Assembly: GCA_016188625.1 (NCBI GenBank)
Contig: JACPHL010000306.1
Coordinates: 1 to 8,979, forward strand
Direction: 5' to 3'
Source: Candidatus Rokuibacteriota bacterium
GTDB lineage: Bacteria; Methylomirabilota; Methylomirabilia; Rokubacteriales; JACPHL01
Length of the DNA: 8,979 nucleotides
The position numbers were made by a program, and so were the translations under genes. This document shows positions 901 to 8,979 of the stretch, piece by piece. The notes below the pieces were generated by a model that worked only from the letters and a program-made list of their open reading frames with translations, did no database searches and was not told the origin of the DNA. Position 1 is the stretch's first letter, and each line of letters opens with the position of its first letter.

Positions 901-3162
901 ATGGCTGACCGGGTCATCCCGAGCACCTGTTGGGAGTGTTCGGTCAAGTGCGGCTCGCTGGTGCACGTCCGGGACGGCCGGGTCGCGAAGATCACCGGCA
1001 ACCCCGACCACCCCCACTCCGAAGGGGCGTTCTGCGTGAAGGGGATAAACGCCCCGCTGGCCGCGCTCGAGCACCCTGACCGGCCCCTGTTCCCCCTCCG
1101 CCGGGCGGGCGAGCGGGGTGCGGGGCGGTGGGGCCGGGTCTCCTGGGACGAAGCCCTCGAGGAGATCGCCGAGCGGCTGGGGGCGGTGAAGCGACGTTAC
1201 GGCCCCCTGGCCATCTGCGGCGCCGTCTCGAGCGCCTACTTCAGCCGCGGGGTCGCCATGGCCCTGCTCCTCCGCTCCCTCGGCACGCCCAACCACATGA
1301 TCAATCAGGACCTCTGCCAGGGGTGCCGGAACACCGGGGCGCTGCTGACGGGGCTCGGGGCGGCGGCGGGGAACGAGCTCAAGCGGACGCGCTGCGTGCT
1401 CGTCGTCGGGAAGAGCCCCTCGGAGTCGGACGTGGTGCAGTGGATGCACCTCAAGGCGGCGAAGCGGCGCGGGGCGACCCTCATTGCGGTCGATCCCCGC
1501 CGGACCCAGGTCGCCCGGCTGGCCGACCTCTGGCTCCGGGTGCGCCCCGGCACCGACGCCGCCCTGGCGCTCTCGATGATCCATGTCCTCTTCGAGGAGG
1601 GGCTCTGGGATCGCGCCTTCGTGGACGAGTGGTGCGTGGGGACGGAGCGGCTTCGGGAGCGCGCCCGGCGGTACCTCCCCGGCGTGGCGGCGGAGATCAC
1701 CGGCCTGGGGGCGGGAGAGATCGTCGAGGCCGCCCGGCGGTTCGCGACGGAGCGGCCCGGCTGCCTCATCCTCGGCCACGGGATCGACGCCCAGGCCAAC
1801 GGGGTCCAGACCGCGCGCGCCTTCCAGTGCCTCCTGGCGCTGACCGGCAATGTCGATGTCCCGGGGGCCAACCGCATGGCCCAGCGGCTGGCGGGGTTCC
1901 GCGACTACTGGAGCTTCATCCACGCCCCGGAGTTCCGCCTCCCCCGCGAGATCGAGGAGGAGATCGTCGGCGGCCGCCGGTACCCGTTCTGGGCCGGGCC
2001 GTCGGGATGGGCGAAGGCCTGCCACAACCCCTCGGTGATCCGGGCGATCCTCACCGGGGACCCGTACCCGGTCCGCGCCCTGTACGTGAGCGGGGTCAAC
2101 ATCGTCTGCACCTACCCGGGGATCCAGGACACGATCGCCGCGCTCCGGGACCTGGACCTCCTGGTGGTGGCCACCGACCACATGACCCCGACGGCCGAGC
2201 TGGCCGACTTCGTCCTTCCGAAGACGACGCTCCTCGAGGAAGAGGAGGTCTCCTGGGAGCCCGGCGGGCCGTGCCTCTCCCTGACCCAGCGGGTGGTCCC
2301 GCCGCGGGGCGAGGCGCGCACCGACTTCGAGATCGCCATCGCGCTCCGGGACCGGCTCCGGGCGCGCGGGCTCATCGACCACGAGCTGCTGCCGTGGAAC
2401 AGTCATCGGGAGTTCCTCGAGTTCCAGCTCAGGGACACGGGGATCCGGCTGGAGGAGCTGCGCGAGAGGGGCTTCTACGAGATCCCGCTCAACTACGGGA
2501 GCTACCGGGCCAAGGGCTTTCCCACGCCCAGCAAGAAGATCGAGCTGGCCTCGAGCCTCCTGGAGGAGGCGGGGTACGACCCCCTCCCCGACTACGTCCC
2601 CCCCGGTTACATCCGGCCCGGTCCGGACTACCCGCTGACGCTCCTCACCGGGATCCGCACCATGGCCTACCACCACTCCCGCTTCCGGAACCATGCCTGG
2701 GCGCGACAGATCCTGGCCGACCCCGAGCTGCGGGTCCACCCCGAGACGGCGAGGGGCCACGGGATCGGGGAAGGGGACTGGGTCTGGATCGAGACGCCGG
2801 GAGGGAAGGGGCGCGTCCGCCTCCGGGCCCGGCTGACGGACGAGGTGCCGTCCGACGTGGTGGCTACAGGCATGGGGTGGTGGTACCCGGAGCGCCCCGG
2901 CTTCGATCACGGGGCCCTCGCCGTGAACGTCGATGCCGCGATCCGTTACGGCCCCCCCTGGGACCCCATCAGCGGCTCCGCCGAGGCCCGCAACATCGCC
3001 TGCCGGATCCGGCGGGCGGAGGCCGAGGAGCGTCTCGAGACGGCCGAGACCGTTTCCGGGCTGGGAGAGCCCTCGTGGCCCGCGCCCTCCGAGCCCCGCG
3101 CGCCCAGGCGGGCCGAGGTGCCCGCGGCCGAGGCGATCGAGGCCCTGCCGCAGGATGGGTGA
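901..3162 (+). CDS. Molybdopterin oxidoreductase, DMSO reductase family (cytoplasmic)
   Basis: A 753-residue catalytic subunit of the Mo/W-bis-MGD (DMSO reductase) family. The N-terminus carries a canonical [4Fe-4S] motif: Cys10-x2-Cys13-x3-Cys17-x27-Cys45, followed by the usual Lys (CVKG). The central molybdopterin-binding domains run from about residue 50 to 530, with typical stretches such as GKSPSESD, DPRRTQ, LILGHGIDAQ and LADFVLPKTT. A MopB C-terminal dinucleotide-binding domain covers about 570-705. The likely metal ligand region contains DLCQGC (residues 137-142); Cys142, or else Cys139, aligns by eye with the Sec/Cys of formate dehydrogenase-type enzymes. There is no twin-arginine signal, so it is probably cytoplasmic. 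The last 45 or so residues are a Pro/Ala/Glu-rich tail outside the fold. The substrate cannot be told from sequence; formate dehydrogenase, thiosulfate/polysulfide reductase-like and acetylene hydratase-like relatives share this layout. No iron-sulfur or membrane partner gene is adjacent. GGAGGGG (884-890) precedes the ATG. Confidence 0.93.
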   Translation: MADRVIPSTCWECSVKCGSLVHVRDGRVAKITGNPDHPHSEGAFCVKGINAPLAALEHPDRPLFPLRRAGERGAGRWGRVSWDEALEEIAERLGAVKRRYGPLAICGAVSSAYFSRGVAMALLLRSLGTPNHMINQDLCQGCRNTGALLTGLGAAAGNELKRTRCVLVVGKSPSESDVVQWMHLKAAKRRGATLIAVDPRRTQVARLADLWLRVRPGTDAALALSMIHVLFEEGLWDRAFVDEWCVGTERLRERARRYLPGVAAEITGLGAGEIVEAARRFATERPGCLILGHGIDAQANGVQTARAFQCLLALTGNVDVPGANRMAQRLAGFRDYWSFIHAPEFRLPREIEEEIVGGRRYPFWAGPSGWAKACHNPSVIRAILTGDPYPVRALYVSGVNIVCTYPGIQDTIAALRDLDLLVVATDHMTPTAELADFVLPKTTLLEEEEVSWEPGGPCLSLTQRVVPPRGEARTDFEIAIALRDRLRARGLIDHELLPWNSHREFLEFQLRDTGIRLEELRERGFYEIPLNYGSYRAKGFPTPSKKIELASSLLEEAGYDPLPDYVPPGYIRPGPDYPLTLLTGIRTMAYHHSRFRNHAWARQILADPELRVHPETARGHGIGEGDWVWIETPGGKGRVRLRARLTDEVPSDVVATGMGWWYPERPGFDHGALAVNVDAAIRYGPPWDPISGSAEARNIACRIRRAEAEERLETAETVSGLGEPSWPAPSEPRAPRRAEVPAAEAIEALPQDG

Positions 3163-3716: not shown

Positions 3717-4334
3717 GTGATCAAACGTTCGACCGGACCGCCCATGAGAGCCCAGACGCGCGCCGACGAGATCCTGAGGGCCGCCACCGCGGTCTTCGCC
3801 CGACGCGGCTTCCACCGGGCCTCCATCCGGGACGTCGCCGCGGAGGCTGAGGTCAGCCTGGCCGGGCTCTACTACTACTTCCGCTCCAAGGACGAGCTGC
3901 TCTACCGGATCCTGGACCGGACCTTCGACGCGCTCCTGGACCGCCTCGCCCAGGTGATCCGCGACGGGTCCGGTCCGGAGGAGCGCGCGCGGGGGCTCGT
4001 CCACGGCCACCTCGGTTATTTCGCGGCCCACATGGACGCCATGAAGGTCGTCTCCCACGAGACCGACTCCCTGGGCGGGGGTTTCCGGCGACAGGTCGCC
4101 GAGAAGCGGCGCCGCTACTTCCTGGAGTGCCAGGCGCTCCTCCGCGAGCTGGACGCCGGGCGCCGCCCCCCAGAGGACCTGCGCACGGCCACCCTCGCCC
4201 TCTTCGGGATGATGAACTGGATCTACACCTGGTACCGCCCCGAGCGGGACGGCGACGCCGGGGCCATCGCCAAGCGGATGATGGATCTCTTCCTCTACGG
4301 CTTCAGCGGCGATTCGAAGAGGGCAGGGCCATGA
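3717..4334 (+). CDS. TetR/AcrR-family transcriptional regulator
   Basis: A 205-residue TetR-family repressor. The N-terminal DNA-binding domain spans about residues 12-60, with the helix-turn-helix at IRDVAAEAEVSLAGLYYYF (37-55) followed by the family's SKDELL. The C-terminal ligand/dimer domain ends with GMMNWIYTWYRPERDG and LFLYGF, a pattern known in TetR proteins of fatty-acid, steroid and aromatic acyl-CoA catabolism. The ligand is therefore plausibly an acyl- or aroyl-CoA, by inference. The start is uncertain: GTG at 3717 or ATG at 3744 (residue 10), neither with a good ribosome binding site; the ATG would give 196 residues and still keep the whole HTH. The stop overlaps the next gene's start (ATGA), so the regulator is the first gene of the BcrC/BcrB/Mo-enzyme operon. 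It very likely binds the paired palindromes just upstream. Confidence 0.93.
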   Translation: MIKRSTGPPMRAQTRADEILRAATAVFARRGFHRASIRDVAAEAEVSLAGLYYYFRSKDELLYRILDRTFDALLDRLAQVIRDGSGPEERARGLVHGHLGYFAAHMDAMKVVSHETDSLGGGFRRQVAEKRRRYFLECQALLRELDAGRRPPEDLRTATLALFGMMNWIYTWYRPERDGDAGAIAKRMMDLFLYGFSGDSKRAGP

Positions 4335-5485
4335 CCTTCGAGGCGATCGTCGAGGAGTGCCGGGCCCGGCTGGCCCGGCCGCCGGGCGAGGTGGCCGCGA
4401 CCTGGAAGGCCGAGCACCCGGGGGGGAGGGCGATCGGCTGCTTCCCCGTCTACACCCCGCTCGAGCTGATCCACGCCGCCGGCGCACTCCCCCTGGCCGT
4501 CGCGGGCGGCGGGACCACGGTCGAGCTGACCCACGCCGACTCGCGCTTCCAGTCCTTCGTCTGCTCCATCGCCAAGACGACCCTCGAGCTGGGCTTCCAG
4601 GGGCGCCTGGCGGGCCTGGACGGGGTCCTGTTCCACTCCATCTGCGACGTGGCGCGCAACCTGTCGAGCGTCATGCGCCGGAACTTTCCGGACCTCTTCG
4701 TGGAGTATCTCCACCTCCCCCAGAACACGGCGAGCGAAGCCGCCGTGGACTACCTGGAGGCCGAGTACCGGCGCCTCCTCGCGCGCCTCGAGGGGCTGGT
4801 CGGCCACCCCGTGACGGACGACGACCTCGCCCGGAGCATCCTGGCCCACAACTGGCGCCGCGGCCTGCTCCGGCGGCTTTACGCCTTCCGGGCCCAGGCT
4901 CCCCACCTCCTCTCCCTGGCCGAGTGCGCCCTCCTGACCCGCGCGGCCGGGGCGATGCCGGTCGAGAGCTACGGCCCGCTCCTCGAGGCCGCCCTGGTCG
5001 CCCTGGGGGCCCGGGAGGGGCGGCTCAAGGACCGGGTCCGGGTCGTCGTCGAGGGGGCCTTCTGCGAGCAGCCCCCCCTCGGGCTCCTGGAGGTGATCGA
5101 GGAGGCGGGGTGCTACGTGCTGGACGACGACCTCATGACCGGCTGGCGGTGGTTCACGGAGGACGTCCCCGTGGACGGCGCGCCGCTCCGTGCCCTGGCC
5201 GAGGCCTATCGGGACCGCTCCGAGTACTCCTCGATCCGCCACGACTGGCGCAAGCCCAAGGCCCAGGGGCTCCTGGAGAAGGTGCGCCGGGCCGGGGCCG
5301 ACGCCGTCCTCTTCCTCCCCGCCAAGTTCTGCGAGCCGGCCCTGTTCGACTACGTCCTCTACCGGGAGGCCTTGGAGCGGGAGGGGATCCCGCACCTGGT
5401 CGTCGAGTTCGAGGAGAAGCAGTGGACCTTCGAGCGGACCCGGAACGAGATCGAGACCTTCGTGGAGTCGTTGCTCTTCGACTGA
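4331..5485 (+). CDS. BcrC/HgdB-type subunit (benzoyl-CoA reductase or 2-hydroxyacyl-CoA dehydratase family)
   Basis: A 384-residue protein of the family that includes BcrB/BcrC of ATP-dependent benzoyl-CoA reductase and the HgdA/HgdB-type 2-hydroxyacyl-CoA dehydratase subunits. The length fits BcrC. Family signs: IGCFPVYTPLELIHAAG at 35-51, SFVCSIAKTTLELG at 75-88, HSICDVARN at 102-110, and KFCEPALFDY near the C-terminus. Candidate cluster ligands are Cys37, Cys78, Cys105 and Cys334. In known members such cysteines hold a [4Fe-4S] cluster that passes one electron at very low potential to the CoA ester. The open frame extends upstream to 4127, but the ATG at 4331, overlapping the TetR stop by four bases, is the sensible start; GAGGG lies just before it. 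The protein is cytoplasmic and presumably forms a heterodimer with the next product. Whether it reduces an aromatic ring or dehydrates a hydroxyacyl-CoA is not decided by sequence alone. Confidence 0.9.
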   Translation: MTFEAIVEECRARLARPPGEVAATWKAEHPGGRAIGCFPVYTPLELIHAAGALPLAVAGGGTTVELTHADSRFQSFVCSIAKTTLELGFQGRLAGLDGVLFHSICDVARNLSSVMRRNFPDLFVEYLHLPQNTASEAAVDYLEAEYRRLLARLEGLVGHPVTDDDLARSILAHNWRRGLLRRLYAFRAQAPHLLSLAECALLTRAAGAMPVESYGPLLEAALVALGAREGRLKDRVRVVVEGAFCEQPPLGLLEVIEEAGCYVLDDDLMTGWRWFTEDVPVDGAPLRALAEAYRDRSEYSSIRHDWRKPKAQGLLEKVRRAGADAVLFLPAKFCEPALFDYVLYREALEREGIPHLVVEFEEKQWTFERTRNEIETFVESLLFD

Positions 5486-5498
5486 GGGGGGAGAGGCG

Positions 5499-6782
5499 AT
5501 GGCCGAGGCGGCAAAGGCGACCCAGGCGGTGAAGGGCGAGCACGGCTACCACGGGAACGTCCACGAGCGCTCGAAGGCGCTCATGGAGGCCTGGGCGGCG
5601 GAGAGCGCGCGGCGGGCCCGGACCGGGGAGCCGTCGGCGACCATCATGATCTCCGGCAACTGCGTGGAGATCCTCCGGGCCTTCGACATCCACCCCCTCT
5701 TCCCCGAGGTCTCGGCGCTCCAGATGGCGATCCGCAAGCAGTCGCTCCCTCTGATCCTGAAGGCGGAGCAAGTAGGCTACTCCTCGGACAACTGCGCCTA
5801 CGTCAAGGCCGACATCGGCTACCTCCTCTCGGGCGGCTACGGCCCCGAGGGGACGCTGCCGCGCCCGGCGCTGGTCCTCTGCAACTACGTGGGGCGCAAC
5901 GTCTACGTCAAGTGGTTCGAGCACCTGGCCGAGTTCACCAAGGCGCCGCTCTACGTGCTGGACATCCCCTTCCTCCGCGAGGCGCGCCCGAGCCCGGATG
6001 ACGTGGCCTACGTGGTCCGCCAGCTCCGGGAGGTCATCGCCCTCTGCGAGGGGATCACCGGCAAGCGGTTCGACATCGACCGGCTCCGGGAGATCCTCGC
6101 CTACTCCGCGCGGGCCGAGGAGGGCTGGGTCCGGGCCAAGGAGCTCTGCAAGGCGCATCCCGCCCCCTTCGACGCCTACTTCGACTCGATCAACATGATG
6201 GGCCCCATCAACGTCCTCCGGGGGACGCGCGAGTGCGCCGAGTTCTTCGACGCCGCGGTTCCCGAGTACGAGGGGATGGTTGCCCGAGGGGAGGGGCCGC
6301 TCCCGGAGGAGCGCTTCCGGACCGTCGTGGAGGGACCGCCGCCCTACCCCTACTACCGGAGCTTCCGGAACCTGTTCGCCAAGTGGGGGGCCGTGGCTGT
6401 CCAGTCCACCTACTCCACCGTGGGCGGGATCTGGGAGTTCGGGTTCCGACACGACCCCGAGCGGCCGCTCGAGTCGATCGCCGAGCAGATGCTCGTCCAG
6501 AACCTCACCAACCGGAGCCTCCTGGACCGCTACGGGCAGATCCGCGCCTACGTCGAGGGGTGGCGGGCCGACGCCCTGGTCATCCACTCGATCAAATCCT
6601 GCCGGCTCTTCTCCGCGGGGCAGGGGGACATGCGGGAGTACTTCACCAAGGAGCTGGGGGTGCCGACGCTCCTGGTCGAGTCCGACCTGGAGGACCCCCG
6701 CTACTACGCCGAGGCCCAGATGCGGAACCGGATCGACGCCTTCTTCGAGGCCCTGGAGCACAAGAAGGTCATGGGGCGGTAG
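5499..6782 (+). CDS. BcrB-type subunit (benzoyl-CoA reductase or 2-hydroxyacyl-CoA dehydratase family)
   Basis: A 427-residue partner of the preceding subunit, close to the usual BcrB length of roughly 430. Conserved-looking cysteines are Cys55 (ISGNCVEILRAF), Cys99 (SSDNCAYVKADIG), Cys128 (LVLCNYVGRN) and Cys368 (HSIKSCRLFS). The last is the family's C-terminal cluster-ligand region, followed by the GVPTLLVESDLEDPR segment typical of the second Rossmann-like domain. The BcrC-then-BcrB gene order is that of bcrCBAD-type operons. The ATG at 5499 follows the previous stop by 13 bp with GGGGGGAGAGG in between, a strong ribosome binding site; the open frame reaches back to 5190 but would overlap the upstream gene. 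The TAG stop shares its last base with the next gene's GTG. No ATPase/activator gene (BcrA/BcrD or HgdC type) follows within the window. Confidence 0.9.
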   Translation: MAEAAKATQAVKGEHGYHGNVHERSKALMEAWAAESARRARTGEPSATIMISGNCVEILRAFDIHPLFPEVSALQMAIRKQSLPLILKAEQVGYSSDNCAYVKADIGYLLSGGYGPEGTLPRPALVLCNYVGRNVYVKWFEHLAEFTKAPLYVLDIPFLREARPSPDDVAYVVRQLREVIALCEGITGKRFDIDRLREILAYSARAEEGWVRAKELCKAHPAPFDAYFDSINMMGPINVLRGTRECAEFFDAAVPEYEGMVARGEGPLPEERFRTVVEGPPPYPYYRSFRNLFAKWGAVAVQSTYSTVGGIWEFGFRHDPERPLESIAEQMLVQNLTNRSLLDRYGQIRAYVEGWRADALVIHSIKSCRLFSAGQGDMREYFTKELGVPTLLVESDLEDPRYYAEAQMRNRIDAFFEALEHKKVMGR

Positions 6783-8979
6783 TGGCGACGCGCAAGGTCC
6801 CGGTCTACTGCTACCAGTGCGTGGCCGGTCCCGATCTCCTCAAGGTGGTCGTGGAGGACGGGGTCGCGGTCGGCGTGGAGCCCAACTGGGACGCCCGCGC
6901 CTGCCACCCCGCCGGGGGGCGGATCTGCGTGAAGGCCTACGGCCTCATCGAGAAGACCTACAACCCGCACCGGATCACGACCCCCATGCGCCGGACGAAC
7001 CCGCGCAAGGGGCGGGGGGAGGACCCGGGCTGGGTCCCCATCGGCTGGGAGGAGGCCCTGGGGCTCCTGGCCGAGCGCCTCAACCGGATCCGGGCCCACG
7101 GCCCCGTGGACCTCCAGGGCTACCCGAAGCTCGCCGTCACCCTCGGCTCCGGCGGGATCGCCCCGGCGTACCTCGGGAGCTTCGCCGCCTTCCTGGCGGC
7201 CTGGGGGCCGGTGGACATGGGGCTCGGGTCGGGGCAGGGGGTCAAGTGCTACCACTCCGAGCACCTCTACGGGGAGTTCTGGCACCGGGCCTTCACGGCG
7301 GTCCCCGACACCCCCCGCTGCCGCTACATCCTCTCCTTCGGGAACAACAACGACGCCTCCGGCGGGGTCAGCGGGGTCTGGCGTCACGCCGAGGCGCGCG
7401 GCCGCGGGGTCCGCCGGGTCCAGTTCGAGCCCCACCTCTCGGTGACCGGGGCCGGCGCGGAGTGGATCCCGATCCGGCCGAAGACCGACGCCGCGGTCCT
7501 CCTGGCGATGCTCCAGGTGGCCCTCCACGAGGAGGAGTGGTGGGAGGTCGTGGACCTCCCCTTCCTCCGCCGCCGCACCAGCGCTCCCTACCTGGTGGGC
7601 CCGAACGGCTACTACCTCCGCGATCTCGCCAGCGGCAAGCCCCTGGTCTGGGACCTCGTCGCGGGCGCCCCGCGCCCCTTCGACGACCCTGCGGTGGAGG
7701 AGTACGCGATGGAGGGGGAGTACCGGGCGGGCGGGGTCGAGATCGGCCCGGACGGGCAGCGCTGGGAGCATGCGGCCGCGGCCGCCCGTCCCGCCTTCCA
7801 GCTCCTCCTCGACCACGTCCAGGGCTACACCCCCGAATGGGCCGAGGCGATCTCGGACGTCCCCGCCGCCGTCATCCGGCGGGTTACCCGCGAGTACCTC
7901 GCCCACGCCGGGGTGGGGGAGACCATCGAGATCGACGGCGAGGTCTTCCCGTACCGGCCGGTCGCCATCGTCCTCGGCAAGGGCGTGGCCAACGGCTGGG
8001 GCGGGTACGAGTGCTGCTGGGCCCGGACGGTCCTGGCCTGCCTTGTGGGGGCCCTGGAGGTCCCCGGCGGCCTGGTCGGGACCACGGTGCGGCTCAACCG
8101 CCCCGCCACCGACCGGTGGGCGAGCGTCCGGCCGGGCCCCGACGGCTTCATGGCCCAGCCGCTGAACCCGACCGACAAAACCTCCTGGCCGCGCCGCCCG
8201 GGCATCCGGAACGCCTACCGCACCCTGGTCCCCCTGGCCGCGGACTCCCCGTGGTCGGCGGCGCTCGGCCCCGGCCACCTCGCCTGGCTCTTCCAAAAGG
8301 CGCCGCCCGCGGGCTGGCCCCGCCCGACGCCCCCGGAGGTCTGGATCGTCTACCGGGCCAACCCCGTGATCTCCCACTGGGACCCGGCGACGGTGGAGGA
8401 GGTCCTCGCGGGCTTCCCGTTCACGGCGGCCTTCGCCTATACCCAGGACGAGACCAACTGGTACGCCGACCTCCTCCTCCCCGAGGCGACCGACCTCGAG
8501 AGCCTCCAGCTCTACCGGATCGGGGGGACCAAGTACATCGAGCAGTTCTGGGAGCACGCCGGCTTCGCCCTCCGCCAGCCCGCGGTGCTGCCGCGCGGCG
8601 AGGCCCGCGATCTCACCGACCTCGCCACCGAGCTGGCAGGCCGGACCGGCCTCCTCGAGGCGTACAACCGGGCCCTCAGCCGGGGGGCGGGGACCGGGGT
8701 CCCCCTCGCGGGGGAGGGGTTCGACTATGCCCTCGATCCCGGGACGGCATACCCGGCCGAGGCGATCTGGGATCGTGTCTGCCGGGCCGCCACCCGCGCC
8801 CTGACGGCGGGGAAGGAGGAGCGCGACCTGGCCTGGTTCCGGGAGCACGGCTTCTTCGTCGTCCCGTTCCCGGCCCGCTCCTGGTTCCTCCACCCGATCA
8901 TGGTCGCCCAGGGCCTCCGCTATGAGCTCCCCTACCAGGAGCGCCTCCGGCGCCTCGGCGCGGAGCTGGCCGCGCGCCT
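6782..8979 (+). CDS. Molybdopterin oxidoreductase with variant Fe-S motif, 3' end beyond window; PadB-like candidate
   Basis: The frame is open from the GTG at 6782 to the window edge, giving at least 732 residues with no stop, so the gene is partial. It is a DMSO reductase-family Mo/W-bis-MGD catalytic subunit. N-terminal motif: Cys10-Tyr-Gln-Cys13, then Pro17 where the third Cys is normally found, then Cys49 in ICVKAYG; Cys41 is an extra cysteine nearby. The run KTYNPHRITTPMRRTNP follows, then WVPIGWEEAL. The metal-ligand region is GVKCYHSEHLYGE (Cys156 the candidate). Further MopB features are LSFGNNNDAS, VIVLGKG-like AIVLGKGVANG, and TNWYADLLLPEATDLE. The MopB C-terminal domain is mostly missing. 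There is no Tat signal, so it is cytoplasmic, which suits a CoA-ester substrate. The one-base overlap with the BcrB-type gene implies translational coupling. A PadB-like phenylacetyl-CoA:acceptor oxidoreductase role is inferred from context only. Confidence 0.88.
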   Translation, partial: MATRKVPVYCYQCVAGPDLLKVVVEDGVAVGVEPNWDARACHPAGGRICVKAYGLIEKTYNPHRITTPMRRTNPRKGRGEDPGWVPIGWEEALGLLAERLNRIRAHGPVDLQGYPKLAVTLGSGGIAPAYLGSFAAFLAAWGPVDMGLGSGQGVKCYHSEHLYGEFWHRAFTAVPDTPRCRYILSFGNNNDASGGVSGVWRHAEARGRGVRRVQFEPHLSVTGAGAEWIPIRPKTDAAVLLAMLQVALHEEEWWEVVDLPFLRRRTSAPYLVGPNGYYLRDLASGKPLVWDLVAGAPRPFDDPAVEEYAMEGEYRAGGVEIGPDGQRWEHAAAAARPAFQLLLDHVQGYTPEWAEAISDVPAAVIRRVTREYLAHAGVGETIEIDGEVFPYRPVAIVLGKGVANGWGGYECCWARTVLACLVGALEVPGGLVGTTVRLNRPATDRWASVRPGPDGFMAQPLNPTDKTSWPRRPGIRNAYRTLVPLAADSPWSAALGPGHLAWLFQKAPPAGWPRPTPPEVWIVYRANPVISHWDPATVEEVLAGFPFTAAFAYTQDETNWYADLLLPEATDLESLQLYRIGGTKYIEQFWEHAGFALRQPAVLPRGEARDLTDLATELAGRTGLLEAYNRALSRGAGTGVPLAGEGFDYALDPGTAYPAEAIWDRVCRAATRALTAGKEERDLAWFREHGFFVVPFPARSWFLHPIMVAQGLRYELPYQERLRRLGAELAAR

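Follow-up and report, generated by a model that had tools for sequence, protein, structure and literature searches.

An interleaved bcr-pad operon in Rokubacteriales, cut off by a contig end: probable first part of a route from phenylacetate through benzoyl-CoA

The locus described here raises the question of why a gene for a molybdenum enzyme directly follows a pair of bcrC- and bcrB-like genes, at the place where the ATPases of a benzoyl-CoA reductase would be expected. The window, by which we mean the whole stretch of DNA that was analysed (8,979 nucleotides), is the complete contig C127 of a Rokubacteriales MAG (2.6 Mb in 344 contigs, 84% complete), the named relatives of which are Rokubacteria MAGs; position 8979 is the contig end. 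The features of the window are as follows.

90-806: glutamine amidotransferase gene
901-3162: first molybdopterin oxidoreductase gene
3717-4334, + strand: tetR, TetR-family regulator (PF00440 and PF17932), first gene of the visible operon
4331-5485, + strand: bcrC-like gene, predicted class I benzoyl-CoA reductase subunit, 384 amino acids (HGD-D, 2e-70)
5499-6782, + strand: bcrB-like gene, 427 amino acids (HGD-D, 2e-62)
5895-5897, + strand: CGC codon for Arg133 of the BcrB-like protein (alignment of BcrB homologues)
6782-8979, + strand: padB, predicted catalytic Mo subunit of phenylacetyl-CoA:acceptor oxidoreductase (PF00384, orthology and neighbours), cut by the contig end

The stop of tetR overlaps the start of the bcrC-like gene by four bases (ATGA, 4331-4334), and the visible operon therefore begins at tetR, not at 4331; tetR is also found upstream of bcrC in most Rokubacterial loci with contigs long enough. 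The bcrC-like gene ends with TGA at 5483-5485 and is followed, after 13 bp, by the ATG of the bcrB-like gene at 5499, the stop of which (TAG, 6780-6782) shares one base with the start codon of the Mo gene (GTG, from 6782). A previous sequence-only reading of this DNA had given this order and these spacings, including the overlap TAGTG, exactly, apart from the earlier start of the operon. A scan for promoters and terminators gave no match. Further upstream, 901-3162 encodes another Mo enzyme of the DMSO reductase family (753 amino acids), with the glutamine amidotransferase gene upstream of it; its nearest models are Fdh-alpha and PhsA, at scores far under the cut-offs, and no Mo gene of this type was found with the PadB query at the corresponding place in the loci of relatives, which were read by tblastn with named queries.

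We consider the window to hold the opening genes of an interleaved operon for the anaerobic degradation of phenylacetate (or phenylalanine) via benzoyl-CoA, with a probability of about 0.83. The order of the operon would be tetR-bcrC-bcrB-padB-[padC-padD-bcrA-bcrD], the last four genes lying outside the window, and some relatives' operons add genes for an oxidoreductase of the phenylglyoxylate type and for a phenylacetate-CoA ligase. Phenylacetate would first be activated to phenylacetyl-CoA, which a membrane-bound Mo/Fe-S/NrfD complex, PadBCD, would oxidize to phenylglyoxylate with the removal of four electrons, the acceptor probably being a quinone. A thiamine-dependent 2-oxoacid oxidoreductase would then convert phenylglyoxylate to benzoyl-CoA, and the ring would be reduced by BcrCB, powered by the two-ATPase activator BcrAD. 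The Mo enzyme would act upstream in this pathway and would not be the electron donor of BcrCB. Gene identities, orthology and gene order in relatives are read from sequence; the substrates and products are what we infer. No new enzyme type is needed, the operon being otherwise an ordinary one that is cut off while still at its start.

The central point is the identity of the Mo enzyme. Its gene product matches the Molybdopterin oxidoreductase family (PF00384, E 9e-16), and a full-length orthologue also contains PF01568, as in Mo/W-bis-MGD enzymes of the DMSO reductase family; the window holds 732 of about 905-925 amino acids, and the C-terminal dinucleotide-binding domain is missing. Orthologues share 64-71% identity within Rokubacteriales, and many Proteobacteria and Chloroflexi have one at 56-64%. 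The orthologue of Sedimenticola selenatireducens (L173; 57-58% identical to the window protein) is encoded ahead of padC and padD, of genes for PadF, PadG, PadH and PadI that score above NCBIfam cut-offs, and of a gene for a PaaK-like ligase (606 bits against a cut-off of 646). Since the window protein is orthologous to the protein that heads this pad cluster, it is taken to be PadB, a name that comes via the Sedimenticola cluster and not from direct comparison with the PadB sequence of Thauera or Aromatoleum. The order of the pathway is PadJ, PadBCD, PadEFGHI (PMC5109826), and the biochemistry goes back to Rhee and Fuchs 1999, as cited in PMC9765128. The neighbours of padB are constant: padC lies directly 3' of it in 64 of the 68 non-Rokubacterial loci with room for it and in 8 of 9 such Rokubacterial loci, and a phenylacetate-CoA ligase occurs downstream in 40 of 74 non-Rokubacterial loci. 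The Mo gene is thus padB by orthology and context, with a predicted activity, and its product very probably acts ahead of the ring-reducing enzyme, supplying its precursor. When plasmids were searched with the Mo protein, only distant matches came up (best 31%). A Telmatospirillum contig (L202) has a pair of padB orthologues in divergent orientation, with padC and padD after each of them.

The loci of relatives reveal what may lie beyond the contig end. Among 60 Rokubacteriales genomes surveyed, bcrB of the window's type is present in 18 and padB in 18; in 12 of the 18 genomes bearing padB, bcrB is immediately upstream on the same strand, as counted from coordinates, the two genes overlapping by one base at the closest and standing about 320 bp apart at the widest. 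With this frequency of adjacency, the arrangement is not chance. The same adjacency was found in none of 74 non-Rokubacterial padB loci. Six Rokubacterial loci (L035, L036, L037, L111, L113 and L114) have the order bcrB-padB-padC(Fe-S)-padD(NrfD)-ATPase A-ATPase D. In L039, the classical order bcrC-bcrB-ATPase A-ATPase D is followed by padB, and in L124 the order is ATPase A-ATPase D-padB-padC-padD. The ATPases of these operons are two different genes of the BcrA/BcrD family, as in class I. In a SAR324 locus (L179), padBCD comes after bcrC-bcrB-ATPase A-ATPase D, the two sets being separated by an acetyltransferase-like match. A further padB orthologue, in Ardenticatenaceae (Chloroflexi; L131, 18972-22185), has an Mbd-like BcrC/BcrB pair downstream. 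What is new here is the interleaving of bcr and pad genes, together with the divergent reductase clade described below.

The contig of the window ends exactly where relatives carry padC, padD and bcrA. Neither bcrA nor padC was found in the MAG: the ATPase search recovered a single BcrD/MbdQ-like ATPase, on contig C104, and the best PadC match was 44%. We infer that padC, padD and bcrA fall in assembly gaps; given a gene order like that of relatives, the place of padC and padD would be past the break in the contig, and that of bcrA either there or past the end of C104. The ATPase on C104 is accompanied by an acetyltransferase and by a crotonase that resembles 6-oxocyclohexene-carbonyl-CoA hydrolase at a score below the cut-off; the Chloroflexi locus L131 has a crotonase 58% identical to it. 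Just upstream of this ATPase gene is a RidA-like gene (L053, 5598-6029), unlike in relatives. Contig C99 carries 2-oxoacid oxidoreductase genes with 62-77% identity to their counterparts in the relatives' operon, and also a phenylacetate-CoA ligase (73% identity). No Oah-type hydrolase scored above its cut-off in seven genomes and no Had-type dehydrogenase did so in the window's own genome, the control genomes giving none either in both cases.

These components bear on whether the substrate is phenylacetate itself. It is possible, but unlikely, that the operon serves another arylacetate, such as 4-hydroxyphenylacetate or a substituted phenylacetate, via the matching aroyl-CoA and by the same mechanisms. 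Both BcrCB and the 2-oxoacid oxidoreductase diverge from the curated families (the relatives' oxidoreductase is under the PadE/G/I cut-offs and nearer to general 2-oxoacid oxidoreductases), and none of the standard downstream enzymes scored above cut-off. Against this, the operon ligase is closest to PaaK, at 558 bits and so under the cut-off of 646, and pad clusters are where PadB orthologues occur in other organisms. Phenylacetate remains the more probable substrate.

The BcrC/BcrB pair, the only HGD-D proteins recovered by the search of the window's genome, is best read as a divergent class I benzoyl-CoA reductase, its clade being a probable sister to the Bcr type. The BcrC-like protein scores 298 bits with TIGR02263 (cut-off 421) and the BcrB-like protein 323 bits with TIGR02260 (cut-off 487), so that neither reaches the level of the curated equivalogs, which describe the Thauera Bcr type; with the Had models the two score 204 and 177 bits. 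By comparison, Bcr-type BcrB proteins of pad-bearing Proteobacteria and SAR324 score 713-821 bits, and one Mbd-like BcrB 220. The closest solved chains are MbdN (9g87_B; 306 bits, E 4e-90) for the BcrC-like protein and MbdO (9g87_A; 269 bits) for the BcrB-like protein. In a BcrB tree, which has long branches to HadB and BzdO and includes one dehydratase, the window protein falls within a Rokubacterial clade (support 100/98); this clade stands beside Bcr-type BcrB (90/81, not starred), Mbd (MbdO) joins next (100/99), and HadB lies outside. The phylogenetic check proposed with the sequence-only reading thus groups the pair with benzoyl-CoA reductases and not with dehydratases. It is very unlikely that the pair is a 2-hydroxyacyl-CoA dehydratase of the HadBC/HgdAB kind, with one homodimeric activator, standing beside an unrelated Mo enzyme. 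The superfamily is shared, and HadB and HadC are the second-best solved relatives of the pair, but at 176 (BcrC) and 155 bits (BcrB) they score well below MbdN and MbdO; the tree places the pair with the Bcr and Mbd reductases, and relatives have two different ATPase genes where dehydratases have a single activator. This identity was rejected on scores, tree and ATPases. One relative (G033), which has a padB-linked pair, encodes an additional reductase pair that is Mbd-like and is accompanied by two ATPases (L119, on contig C142).

All three cluster cysteines are kept in the BcrC-like protein. The BcrB-like protein of the window keeps two of three, and orthologues covered at all three sites keep all of them. 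The exception is residue 133, which is Arg in the window and Cys in every orthologue aligned there; in the alignment of BcrB homologues, it corresponds to a [4Fe-4S] ligand position, matching Cys117 of HadB. The codon CGC is one transition away from TGC. Arg133 may be an assembly or sequencing error, or may reflect a real loss of function in an inactivated bcrB.

It might be asked whether the interleaving has a mechanistic meaning. It is highly improbable that it reflects physical or electronic coupling, in which the electrons of PadBCD would be used, directly or via a shared carrier, by the divergent BcrCBAD; if this were true, a single assembly would couple the oxidation of a carbon skeleton to the reduction of its ring. 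Very improbable, too, is the proposal that the Mo enzyme takes over from the ATPases by giving electrons straight to the BcrCB-like core, for which the tight linkage of bcrB and padB in the window and in other genomes of the order could be cited, but which is rejected on account of the BcrA/BcrD-type ATPases in the same operons, the failure of the linkage to extend outside the order, the constancy of padC and padD (Fe-S subunit and membrane anchor) as the neighbours of padB, and the presence of padB in two relatives (G017 and G019, each about 91% complete) that have no HGD-D protein, so that PadB need not be partnered with BcrCB.

The sequence-only reading had offered two accounts of the Mo gene. 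The first, in which a PadB-like oxidoreductase provides the reductase with a precursor, has strong support from the orthology and the pad neighbours. The second, in which a Mo enzyme takes the position of the ATPases and is the redox partner of BcrCB, fails: since the ATPases stand after padBCD or between bcrB and padB in relatives, the Mo gene is no replacement for them, and the window genome itself has a BcrD-like ATPase. It had named BcrA/BcrD-type genes directly downstream as evidence against the second account; in substance these are what relatives have, although only after two further pad genes. Conservation of the adjacency, which it had proposed to examine, proved to be common within Rokubacteriales. 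The claim in its title arose because the contig ends inside the Mo gene and so hides the genes beyond, and the locus is an example of how a contig end can give a normal operon the appearance of a novel enzyme system. More broadly, sequence makes a case that Rokubacteriales, an uncultured order of soil and groundwater, may be able to degrade phenylacetate anaerobically through benzoyl-CoA; in a text search, a single open-access paper named Rokubacteria together with benzoyl-CoA. The locus also points to a clade of benzoyl-CoA reductases that escapes the present curated models.

Among known systems, the Bcr type (bcrCBAD) shares with the Rokubacterial operons the placing of C before B, a pair of distinct ATPases (A and D) and the sister position in the BcrB tree; it differs in that most Rokubacterial loci that can be read through have pad genes separating bcrB from bcrA, and in that the window's BcrC and BcrB are below its cut-offs. 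Of the solved structures, 3-methylbenzoyl-CoA reductase MbdONQP (9g87, 9gai) has the chains nearest to BcrC, BcrB and the BcrD-like ATPase, whereas the BcrB of the window falls in a separate clade of the tree. With the 2-hydroxyisocaproyl-CoA dehydratase HadBC/HadI, the likeness is one of superfamily and, apart from position 133 of the BcrB-like protein, of cluster cysteines; the window pair is more distant from it in score and tree, and HadBC uses a single activator. Finally, PadBCD of the padBCDEFGHIJ clusters of Thauera aromatica and Aromatoleum is matched by way of Sedimenticola, where the orthologue of the window's Mo subunit heads a pad cluster, and Fe-S and NrfD-type subunits come next in the relatives of the window; in contrast to these clusters, padBCD in Rokubacteriales sits within a bcr operon, and the 2-oxoacid oxidoreductase there does not reach the PadE/G/I cut-offs.
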